A DNA stretch of 64,000 nucleotides from Mycobacterium pseudokansasii. Lineage in GTDB: Bacteria > Actinomycetota > Actinomycetes > Mycobacteriales > Mycobacteriaceae. Below the pieces are notes generated by a model, which was given only the letters and a program-made list of their open reading frames with translations, was not told the DNA's origin and searched no databases. Of the stretch, positions 54,592-57,602 are shown in pieces. Where the stretch lies: NCBI RefSeq assembly GCF_900566075.1, contig NZ_UPHU01000001.1, positions 1,798,001-1,862,000 of the forward strand, read 5' to 3'. The number at the start of each line of letters is the position of its first letter. Position 1 is the stretch's first letter. Position numbers and translations under genes: made by a program.

Positions 54592-55248
54592 TCAGCGCAG
54601 CATGGTCGCCACGATTCCGGCCAGATAGCCCAGGCGGGCCACCTCCGACGGCCGGAATTCCGGGCCGGGCCGCCCCAGCACCACCGCCATATGCGGATCG
54701 CCCAACGGTGCCGCCACCATCGCGGTGTCCATGTCACGCCAGACCTGGGGCACCCAGTCGGCGCCGCCGTCGAGCGGCACGGCGCGTTCGATCGGCAGCC
54801 AGGGGGCCGAATCGGCGCGGGTTTCCGGTGCGCCCGGGCTGCCCGCCAGCCGGTGTAAGGCGCCCTCCGTGCTGTGCAACACCGTGCACCAGCTCACTCG
54901 CAGCACCCTGGGCGCCTCGTTGACAAGCACCTGCAGTCTGGACGCATTGTCGCGGGCTGCGGCGACGTGGTCGAGAAGCTCCAGCTCGCGGTGGGCTTCC
55001 AGCAACCCGGTGTGGGGGCGCAGGCTGTCCACCCGGACGCCGGTCATTGACTCGGCGGCGGTGATCAGCCGATCCGGCATCGCGCCCGGCGGCAATTCGA
55101 CCACCAGGTCGTCGATCGCGTAGCCCGCGCTGCGCTCGACGACGTCCAGCGACAGGATGTCGGCGCCCACCGAACCCAACGCAACCGCCAGCGACCCCAG
55201 GCTGCCGGGGCGGTCCACCAGCTCGATGCGCAACAGATACGACGGCAC
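54592..55248 (-). CDS. ACT-domain regulatory protein (Rv3013-like)
   Basis: 218 residues from GTG 55248, same length as Rv3013. ACT domain: SYLLRIELVDRPGSLGSLAVALGSVGADILSLDVVER; the rest resembles a second alpha/beta sensory region (LLEAHRELELLDHVAAARDNASRLQVLVNEAPRVLRVSW, RDMDTAMVAAPLGDPHMAVVLGRPGPEFRP). Probably binds an amino acid or similar ligand; target unknown. Follows the pseudokinase gene on the same strand by 60 bp. Confidence 0.88.
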   Translation of the reverse strand: MPSYLLRIELVDRPGSLGSLAVALGSVGADILSLDVVERSAGYAIDDLVVELPPGAMPDRLITAAESMTGVRVDSLRPHTGLLEAHRELELLDHVAAARDNASRLQVLVNEAPRVLRVSWCTVLHSTEGALHRLAGSPGAPETRADSAPWLPIERAVPLDGGADWVPQVWRDMDTAMVAAPLGDPHMAVVLGRPGPEFRPSEVARLGYLAGIVATMLR

Positions 55249-55308
55249 GGCCAACACTGTTGCACAGGGATGTATCCGTGGCATTTCGGCGGGCGGGCCG
55301 GGGGCACT

Positions 55309-57123
55309 TCAGCCGTGGCGCCCGAATACCGCCTTACGCAATGCGAGCGTGAGGTGGCCGGCGTCTTGGATGCCGATATGCGGCGCGTCGATGAGGGCTT
55401 CGTCGATGACGGCGGCCACCGGGCGTGGAATGTTGCGGTCTATCCGTCGGATCGGAACGGGCATGGTGCTCATTACCACGTCGGCGGGGTCTTTGCCGAC
55501 AGCGGCAACTCGCGGCGGAGTTCCGGTCAACATGTAGTACAGACATGCGGCCATCTGCCACGTGTCGACGTCGCGCGCGGGTGCCCGCGCGGGTTCGGTG
55601 ACCTGCGGGCGCGGTGTGAACGATGGGTCAACAGAAACCTCCGTCGCGAACCCGAAGTCGACAAGCTTGGTGACCGGTTCGCCGCCGGACCAGGTCAACA
55701 CGAATTTGGTCGGCGTGATGTTGCGGTGCATGATGCCGACCGACCCGTCGATCCGAGGAAAGCCGTGTGCGTAGGTCAGTGCATCGAGACAGGGCAGGAC
55801 CAGCGACACGGCTTGGCGGACGGTGAGTGATCCCAGCCGCAAAACCAGCTGTTCGATCGTTTCTCCCGGCCAGTATTCGGTAACGACGAGCAAGAATTCT
55901 CCGACGGGCAGAGCTGCCCGTGGAGTGACGGCATTGGCGTGACGAAAACCCGCCAGGTCCCCGAACGGCCGTGGTTTCGCGAGCTCTTCGGGTGCGACCG
56001 CGGCCCGGGGAACGACCCGTAGTGCGCATACCTCGCCGGTGTGTTGCGAGCGGGCGCGGAAGGCGGGTCCGGACCCGCCGCTCACCTGATTCAGCAAGGT
56101 GTATCCGGCGATGGTGACCGCGCCGCCGTGCCCCCCGACGAGTCGTCGCACCAACTCACGCGGCAGTCCTCGCTGCCGGCAGTCCATGCAGATGTGTTCG
56201 CCGGACCCCGCCTGCGTGCCCTCGACAACACTGCGCCCGCAGGCTACGCAGTCTGTGGACTGCGACTGGCGCGTCTGCGGCCGGTCTCCGATCGGCGAGT
56301 CGACCGCCGGCGTCGCGCTTAACGCGGCGGCGGCCGCCGCGGCCAGCTCTGCTGCGCTGGGGTAGCGACTATGCGGGTCTTTCGCCATGCCGCGTGCGAC
56401 GACCTCGTCAAAGGCTTTCGGCACCAAGGGATTTGCGGCGCTGGGCTTGGGCGGATCCTTGGTCAGGTGCCCGGTGACTTGCTGCTCGATGGTGCCGGGG
56501 AACGGCGGCGCACCGGTCAGGCACGCGTACAGGATGCATGCCAGCGAGTATCGGTTGGCCGGTGCCTCGACATCGGGAGTCGCGAAGCATTCAGGAGCGA
56601 GATAGTCATAGAAGCGCCGGCCGATCACTTCGCCGGAGGCCTCGCTGTCGGTGCCCGACACGCTCGACTGGCCAACGAGGTATGCGACATCGTCACGAGT
56701 CACCAGTATTTTCCCTGGGCTGACGTCGCGCAGCACGGCATCGGTCGTGTGGGCGGCGTCGAGCGCGGCGGCGATCTGTCCCACGATGTGCACCGCCCGT
56801 GCCGGGCTTGGCGGGCCGCCGCGATCCAACATGGTGTCAAGATCGATGCCGTCGACAAAGGGCATCCGCAGATAGCGCCACCCGTCGATCTCACCCACCT
56901 CGTCGGCCAGCACCAGATGCGGTTCGCCGGTCGGTGCCAGCAGTCGCGCCAGGATGCGCGCCTCCTTTTGCACCCTCAAGGCCATCGGATCGCTGCGATC
57001 CACTCGTCCCAAGAGGCGCAACAGCACCCGGTGCCCGGTAGTGGTGTCTTCGGCCTCGTAGCTGTCGAAGCGACCGGCGCCTAGCCGCCGAAGCAGCCGA
57101 TAACGACCGAGTTGCGCGTCCAT
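55309..57123 (-). CDS. Tandem double pseudokinase with Cys4 linker
   Basis: 604 residues from ATG 57123. Two serine/threonine kinase-like domains (about 8-270 and 340-600) flank a zinc-ribbon-like Cys4 segment (C292, C295, C312, C315). Domain 1: Gly loop GAGRFDSY kept, ATP-binding Lys replaced (VLLRLL, R36), HRD reads LRD (131-133), DFG reads VGQ (150-152), APE kept (176-178). Domain 2: Lys replaced (CALRVV, R369), HRD reads HRN (466-468), DFG kept (489-491). The catalytic-loop Asn is Lys in both (K138, K473). Neither should phosphorylate conventionally. No membrane helix. Divergent from gatC. Confidence 0.88.
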   Translation of the reverse strand: MDAQLGRYRLLRRLGAGRFDSYEAEDTTTGHRVLLRLLGRVDRSDPMALRVQKEARILARLLAPTGEPHLVLADEVGEIDGWRYLRMPFVDGIDLDTMLDRGGPPSPARAVHIVGQIAAALDAAHTTDAVLRDVSPGKILVTRDDVAYLVGQSSVSGTDSEASGEVIGRRFYDYLAPECFATPDVEAPANRYSLACILYACLTGAPPFPGTIEQQVTGHLTKDPPKPSAANPLVPKAFDEVVARGMAKDPHSRYPSAAELAAAAAAALSATPAVDSPIGDRPQTRQSQSTDCVACGRSVVEGTQAGSGEHICMDCRQRGLPRELVRRLVGGHGGAVTIAGYTLLNQVSGGSGPAFRARSQHTGEVCALRVVPRAAVAPEELAKPRPFGDLAGFRHANAVTPRAALPVGEFLLVVTEYWPGETIEQLVLRLGSLTVRQAVSLVLPCLDALTYAHGFPRIDGSVGIMHRNITPTKFVLTWSGGEPVTKLVDFGFATEVSVDPSFTPRPQVTEPARAPARDVDTWQMAACLYYMLTGTPPRVAAVGKDPADVVMSTMPVPIRRIDRNIPRPVAAVIDEALIDAPHIGIQDAGHLTLALRKAVFGRHG

Positions 57124-57164
57124 AAGCCTCGCTTCGACTTCGGGCCGGCAACTGATAGTGCCCG

Positions 57165-57218
57165 AATCGCTTGAGTATCGCCACCTCATTCCGGCCGTGC
57201 AAACCCCAAATCGCTTGA
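57165..57218. repeat. Direct repeat pair upstream of the pseudokinase
   Basis: AATCGCTTGA at 57165-57174 and again at 57209-57218, 44 bp apart (about four helical turns), between the divergent pseudokinase and gatC starts. Could be a paired activator site; chance is not excluded. Confidence 0.3.
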
Positions 57219-57302
57219 TGTGGCGAAAACGCCGACCTTGCCACCGGCATGTGAGCGCCCGGCACCGCCCTGCGCATCGTCGCAAGGTTAGGCTTTTCGC
57301 TC

Positions 57303-57602
57303 GTGTCCCAGATCTCCCGCGACGAGGTGGCCCATCTGGCCCGGCTGGCCCGTCTGGCGCTGACCGACCATGAGCTCGACCACTTCGCCGGTCAACTCGA
57401 CGCCATCTTGGCGCACGTCAGCCAGATCCAGGCGGTCGACGTCACCGGCGTGCAAGCCACCGACAATCCGCTCAAGGACGTCAACGTCACGCGCCCCGAC
57501 GAGATCGCGCCGTGCCTGACGCAGGAGCAGGCGCTGGCCGCGGCGCCGGAGGCCGTCGACGGCCGCTTCGCCGTCCCGCAGATCCTGGGGGACACCGAGT
57601 GA
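57303..57602 (+). CDS. gatC: Asp-tRNA(Asn)/Glu-tRNA(Gln) amidotransferase subunit C
   Basis: 99 residues, the usual size. [35 protein letters not shown] and [13 protein letters not shown] are GatC features; it stabilises the GatA-GatB contact. GTG start at 57303. Its stop overlaps the gatA start (GTGA). Confidence 0.95.

Follow-up and report, generated by a model that had tools for sequence, protein, structure and literature searches.

A Mycobacterium pseudokansasii protein with two impaired kinase domains on either side of a Cys4 knuckle, a candidate non-catalytic signalling adaptor

In the genome of Mycobacterium pseudokansasii, the window considered here, namely the whole stretch of 64,000 nucleotides analysed (NCBI RefSeq assembly GCF_900566075.1, contig NZ_UPHU01000001.1, positions 1,798,001 to 1,862,000 of the forward strand), carries a gene for a 604-amino-acid protein with two pseudokinase domains separated by a four-cysteine (Cys4) knuckle. 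With a probability of roughly 0.55, this protein can be regarded as a cytosolic, catalytically dead signalling adaptor, whose first domain, KDb, possibly forms a metal-independent nucleotide pocket and whose second domain, KDc, would provide a docking face; both are named after the counterpart domains of three-domain relatives, organised as KDa-KDb-KDc. Since the frame is open, the folds intact, the losses shared and one replacement fixed, a non-catalytic module fits better than an enzyme, and the scaffold or ligand binder put forward in a preliminary description of this DNA remains the best fit. The features concerned are as follows.

55309..57123, minus strand: whole gene, two pseudokinase domains, 604 amino acids (open frame and relatives P0003-P0005)
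56314..57114, minus strand: KDb, residues 4-270, PknE/StpK-type pseudokinase domain
57016..57018, minus strand: R36 in place of the beta3 Lys in KDb (motif alignment)
56710..56712, minus strand: K138 in place of the catalytic-loop Asn in KDb, a basic residue in 4/4 family members (motif alignment)
56665..56673, minus strand: GQS replacing DFG in KDb, residues 151-153 (motif alignment)
56179..56250, minus strand: Cys4 knuckle C292/C295/C312/C315 (sequence pattern, kept from the FHA-Cys4-kinase family)
55324..56121, minus strand: KDc, residues 335-600, pseudokinase domain derived from FHA-Cys4-kinases
56017..56019, minus strand: R369 in place of the beta3 Lys in KDc (motif alignment)
55966..55968, minus strand: P386 in place of the alphaC Glu in KDc, a Pro shared by 4/4 family members (column comparison)
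55720..55728, minus strand: HRN replacing HRD in KDc (motif alignment)
55705..55707, minus strand: K473 in place of the catalytic-loop Asn in KDc, the family reading K/S/S/N (motif alignment)
55651..55659, minus strand: DFG retained in KDc, residues 489-491 (motif alignment)

The open reading frame on the minus strand (55309-57123) starts with ATG and runs over 604 codons plus a stop codon, with zero internal stops. Pfam Pkinase matched two stretches of the protein (E 3.1e-29 for the whole protein), and the profile match combined with a predicted two-lobed fold assigns it to the Ser/Thr kinase fold (PF00069). Regarding the start, a TTG is found in frame farther upstream (57285) and homology to relatives begins at about residue 4, near the ATG at 57123; the database cluster P0002, listed as encoded in the window, begins at M47, probably wrongly, as beta1-beta3 would then be missing and the homology favours the ATG at 57123. 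No membrane-like stretch was detected in the protein, nor any Pfam match to an FHA domain at E <= 1. Folds were predicted from two alignments, A7 for KDb and A5 for KDc, each model being weak in the other half: ten-residue means of the predicted local distance difference test (pLDDT) were 82-98 over residues 1-270, except 41-50 (74) and 151-170 (47-48), and 77-98 over residues 331-600. A broader modelling alignment (A4) was set aside, since to judge by its summary it stacked single kinases and FHA-kinases over one and the same half. The analysis bears out the first description of an unbroken frame that encodes two impaired kinase domains.

A protein search returned 1558 matches at E <= 0.001 among 7993 candidates scored. 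Among the best 120 of these, the near-full-length relatives besides P0002 are P0003 (53% identity, 876 amino acids), P0004 (51%, 877) and P0005 (48%, 894), whose source code 'lgn' is taken to denote Logan assemblies; their existence confirms, at the level of homology, that the window protein is not a chance reading frame. Each carries the three kinase domains KDa-KDb-KDc, with three Pkinase stretches matched by Pfam in P0003 and in P0005, and the window copy is without KDa. A shorter relative, P0011, consists of KDa and the beginning of KDb, and the next match after the family, P0006, carries two kinases in tandem that show the usual motifs. In KDa of P0003-P0005 and P0011, the beta3 Lys and the Asn are kept, HRD has become HxG and DFG has become G[LF]G. 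Every domain of the family is impaired, each differently.

In KDb, VLLR36 stands for VAIK, LRDVSPGK138 for HRDxxxxN and GQS151-153 for DFG, the latter loss having been noted initially and borne out by the motif alignment, and the Gly-loop is lost. Two features absent from the preliminary description or newly compared within the family are the LRD variant of HRD, in which the Asp is retained, and the alphaC Glu (E54), retained in 4/4 family members. In the order window protein/P0003/P0004/P0005, the beta3 column reads R/K/Q/K, the HRD Asp D/A/A/E, the Asn position K/R/R/K and the DFG Asp G/C/C/L, DFG being lost in 4/4. Position 138 is thus basic throughout the family vs Asn in 36/36 single kinases compared, and stays so while much of the catalytic loop drifts among relatives; 3 of 260 KDb columns (32, 138 and 191) are basic in all four members and in at most 3% of these single kinases. 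These comparisons support a constraint on position 138 and a patterned loss in KDb.

In KDc, the corresponding motifs are CALR369, HRNITPTK473 and DFG489-491, which agrees with the HRN initially reported in place of HRD. Besides, the alphaC Glu is replaced by Pro386, a change absent from the preliminary description, with Pro in 4/4 family members and Glu in 97% of 31 parent-family rows. In the same order as above, the columns read R/R/R/K at beta3, N/N/N/S at the HRD Asp and K/S/S/N at the Asn position, with DFG in 4/4. The preliminary description had considered the losses as patterned, with the beta3 Lys absent and Lys in place of Asn in both domains, and had suggested an RxxxPxK signature common to the two. 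All of this holds for the window copy, but in the family the beta3 replacement is not fixed in either domain, the signature is restricted to the window copy, and Lys at position 473 is not common to the relatives, so that the pattern stands for KDb and fails for KDc by the very test then proposed, that of free variation among relatives. Between the two domains, the CxxC-N16-CxxC motif was correctly recognised (C292-x2-C295-x16-C312-x2-C315); it would hold zinc. The conservation expected of the four cysteines is found in 3/4 family members, P0005 being without Cys4.

In a 69-domain tree, the four KDc form one clade (100/100) nested in the FHA-Cys4-kinases (99/81 with P0153), and the KDb (100/98) and KDa (100/99) clades group together at 94/94, short of full support, which is what a tandem duplication would give. 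From this placement, KDc and its Cys4 knuckle descend from the actinobacterial FHA-Cys4-kinase family, with later loss of the knuckle in P0005. Within that family, represented by P0122, the gene at L026 7419-8837 and P0153 (a Nocardia wallacei protein kinase), the Cys4 knuckle before the kinase domain is shared with the window protein, the descent concerning KDc only; an FHA domain, present for instance in L026 7419-8837, is missing from the window protein, which of the HRD, Asn, DFG and beta3 Lys found in ten rows of the motif table keeps only DFG. Among the 120 listed relatives of the FHA-kinase of genome G383, CxxC-n-CxxC occurs in 112, with a spacing of 16 in 52 of them, and a simple HRD....N pattern in 90, the rest being partly false pattern matches; activity is not claimed for all of them. 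In G383, another Mycobacterium, a kinase-like gene (L026 6415-7326) adjoins the FHA-Cys4-kinase gene and a PP2C gene follows, all within L026:6415-9612. The product of the kinase-like gene reads HRDVRPSK with PLG for DFG, and its relative P0243 reads HAGIRPSK with NLG, both with Lys at the Asn position; a grouping of this gene with KDa/KDb is neither rejected nor shown (p 0.293). A match with a 'stop inside' in G383 was rejected as a broken copy, as it corresponds to two separate adjoining genes.

As a possible scenario, a tandem-duplicated PknE/StpK-type kinase (KDa-KDb) would have been fused with the Cys4-kinase half of a protein of the FHA-Cys4-kinase family; later losses would have removed FHA and the catalytic residues, as well as KDa in the lineage of the window. 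The present composition, KDb followed by Cys4-KDc, is read from the sequence, and the order of these events is a reconstruction. In the resulting adaptor, the two kinase shells and the Cys4 hinge would dock partners and compete with or position them, with KDc as docking face; active Ser/Thr kinases, or substrates of such kinases, are the likeliest candidates. A nucleotide or another phosphate ligand may act as a gate for KDb, held by the basic residue at 138 instead of a metal, as in pseudokinases of the Tribbles-2/ULK4 type. In the passages of PMC10129394 considered here, Tribbles-2 (TRB2) and ULK4 have Lys/Arg at the catalytic-loop Asn, as in KDb, and bind adenosine triphosphate (ATP) without metal, and in obscurin PK1 a Lys takes the role of magnesium; ATP binding by ULK4 is described as robust and Mg-independent in those of PMC8141879. 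However, these proteins are eukaryotic and not close kin, KDb is without DFG and Gly-loop, and the likeness is known in KDb from the Asn to Lys/Arg mark only.

Several points weigh against the adaptor proposed here. In KDb, both the Gly-loop and the beta3 residue have degenerated and vary, which argues against nucleotide binding. Two of the 263 KDc columns, 356 and 517, are likewise basic throughout the family and in no more than 3% of the parents while lying outside the motifs tested, so that a fixed basic residue alone is no proof of an active-site role. The family amounts to four sequences, of which P0003 and P0004 are close, hence about three independent observations. In the linker (271-319), 0/49 positions are identical in all four, partly from the gap in P0005, and the relative placement of KDb and KDc is not reliably predicted (predicted template modelling scores, pTM, of 0.57 and 0.51). 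The neighbouring genes are not conserved. The chief doubt is whether the gene functions at all, as it is rare, recently placed and deprived of one domain.

Among the alternatives, KDb might be a closed, non-binding shell in which the basic residue at 138 forms an internal salt bridge, e.g. with Glu54, the fold being locked for docking only. The presence of Glu54 in 4/4 members while its usual beta3 partner varies (R/K/Q/K) speaks for such a bridge, as does the loss of Gly-loop and DFG; the ATP binding that accompanies Lys/Arg at the Asn position in TRB2 and ULK4, as far as the sources above go, speaks against it, and the proposal is held as doubtful.

The gene lies between an ACT-type gene and a gene which we take to be gatC, both correctly given as neighbours in the preliminary description.

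55305..57281, no strand: insert between ACT-type gene and gatC, approximate (edges +/- ~15 bases; flank comparison with relatives)
54592..55284, minus strand: ACT-type gene, lying downstream at 24 bases from the stop codon of the pseudokinase gene (weak ACT match)
57303..57602, plus strand: gatC (presumed name), divergent, in an order common with relatives

The Pfam ACT match is below the curated cut-off (18.3 vs 27 bits), and the ACT-type gene occurs in 383/396 genomes of the genus. Flanks were compared over the 30 best ACT-type loci, i.e. our own and 29 of those from the 382 other genomes with a match. The pseudokinase gene is absent beside the ACT-type gene in 29/29 relatives' loci, where gatC adjoins the ACT-type gene in 26; in the other three (L046, L053 and L057) the ACT-type gene lies among other genes, not beside gatC. 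The gap between the two genes is 62-68 bases in the five closest relatives vs 2018 in the window, and in most loci compared flank homology is lost around 55290-55305 and regained around 57281-57289, which implies that little beyond the pseudokinase gene was inserted (roughly 2 kb). As the neighbours do not travel with this insert, the link to GatCAB or the ACT protein, and through them to translation, that was initially suggested is weak. No convincing repeats were found at the insert edges, and a promoter scan gave 0 sigma-70-like sites. PADLOC matches were mostly PD-T4-6 kinase models and were not taken as defence. Of note, in locus L040 (G134:C4), gatA picks up at residue 279 directly after residue 90 of gatC, owing to either a deletion or an assembly error.

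As a second alternative, the gene could be a horizontally acquired fragment of a three-domain pseudokinase that landed there and is drifting without function. The missing first domain, the absence from relatives' loci, the catalytic positions varying among relatives, the truncation of P0011 and a third-position guanine-cytosine (GC) content of 76.9%, vs 86.1% for the ACT-type gene and 92.0% for gatC, are in line with decay. So is the distribution: in genus samples that overlap, a KDc profile matched 1/383 genomes (>=99% completeness) at E <= 1e-25, that of the organism itself, and the C-terminal 325 amino acids matched 2/396 at E <= 1e-20, namely its own and G383, where the 40% relative is the FHA-kinase. 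With the whole protein, 174/198 genomes matched at E <= 1e-30, the matches listed being whole-length only in its own genome and mainly to KDb elsewhere; among 100 relatives, 23 matched at E <= 1e-10, the best after its own (1.5e-38, 40% identity) being an FHA-kinase of G230, a genome of the same order but a different family. Two contig scans found no orthologue in named genomes, one yielding 13 pattern matches and no relative, the second 69 stretches, of which 3 were distant cyanobacterial loci (33-45% identity) and were left aside. Yet 604 codons stay open, both folds are predicted intact with core kinase positions kept, the relatives at 48-53% identity likewise have long open frames, and the nearby parA has a similar third-position GC content (75.7%). 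Decay is considered unlikely.

An enzyme with altered chemistry, e.g. transfer of adenosine monophosphate as first suggested, is highly improbable: some pseudokinase folds do so (SelO, SidJ, in the portion of PMC12599244 considered) and KDc keeps DFG, but according to Table 1 of that article Escherichia coli SelO retains the beta3 Lys, the Asn and a DFG-type Asp, of which KDb has none and KDc only the Asp, and the remaining active-site residues vary among relatives. A conventional kinase with displaced catalytic residues is the least credible, for although KDb of the window keeps the HRD Asp and Glu54, and KDc its DFG, the beta3 Lys, HRD Asp, Asn and DFG Asp never occur together (R/D/K/lost in KDb, R/N/K/D in KDc), the HRD Asp of KDb varies and its DFG is lost in 4/4, KDc is without HRD Asp and alphaC Glu in 4/4, and no displaced substitutes were seen, no search in a structure with nucleotide having been made.

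Compared with known systems, the window protein differs from the mycobacterial PknE/StpK7-type kinases (2h34; NCBIfam NF052427) by its lost catalytic residues and the lack of a membrane part, with 228.1 bits against an equivalog cut-off of 900 for StpK7. In the part of PMC12599244 considered, the bacterial ActPs2 pseudokinases share the beta3 Arg and HRN with KDc, but mostly have DFG deleted, two long inserts in about 90% (~32 and ~250 amino acids) and common membrane segments, none of which applies to KDc, with its DFG and a span of about 266 residues. The mycobacterial pseudokinase domain of MviN (ActPs3) has a scaffold role, recruiting FhaA, but belongs to a membrane protein with other motif losses (Table 1 of the same article). 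The mycobacterial tandem kinases P0007-P0009 also have two kinase domains per chain, the first altered at HRD (HGD), but their second domain keeps the catalytic residues and they form a separate lineage in the tree; with P0244, of similar motifs, this pseudokinase-kinase layout recalls JAK. In its own genome (chromosome of 6.31 Mb, second contig of 117 kb), 25 kinase matches were found, two in the window protein and 23 in 22 other loci, all of which keep the catalytic-loop Asn and DFG-type Asp, with the beta3 Lys in the 21 unbroken ones; by its motifs, the window protein stands apart from them all. One of these genes, for a Ser/Thr kinase (L086, G000:C1:3226700-3227700), is split over two frames and appears broken, and another paralogue is 94.7% identical to P0065 (M. 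persicum), 93.4% to P0061 (M. ostraviense) and 90.2% to P0034 (M. kansasii).

According to the portion of the 2025 review considered (PMC12599244), bacterial pseudokinases are largely unexplored by experiment; its main text has no word starting with 'tandem', 'zinc' or 'dual', the part of PMC2877116 considered holds nothing on a Cys4 kinase, and no description of this protein or of an all-pseudokinase bacterial tandem was found in the open-licence literature by title or abstract start. A bolder proposal, unlikely to hold in full, would be that of an all-pseudokinase bacterial signalling protein, with two domains here and three in relatives, one of which independently evolved the Tribbles/ULK4 device, reading nucleotide without metal or catalysis, the other being a dead mimic of FHA-Cys4 kinases. 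A protein without any unimpaired kinase domain, together with relatives showing which residues are fixed after the loss of catalysis, would allow one to test directly why the kinase fold is retained, and whether pseudokinases that sense nucleotides without metal arose in bacteria in parallel to those of animals.
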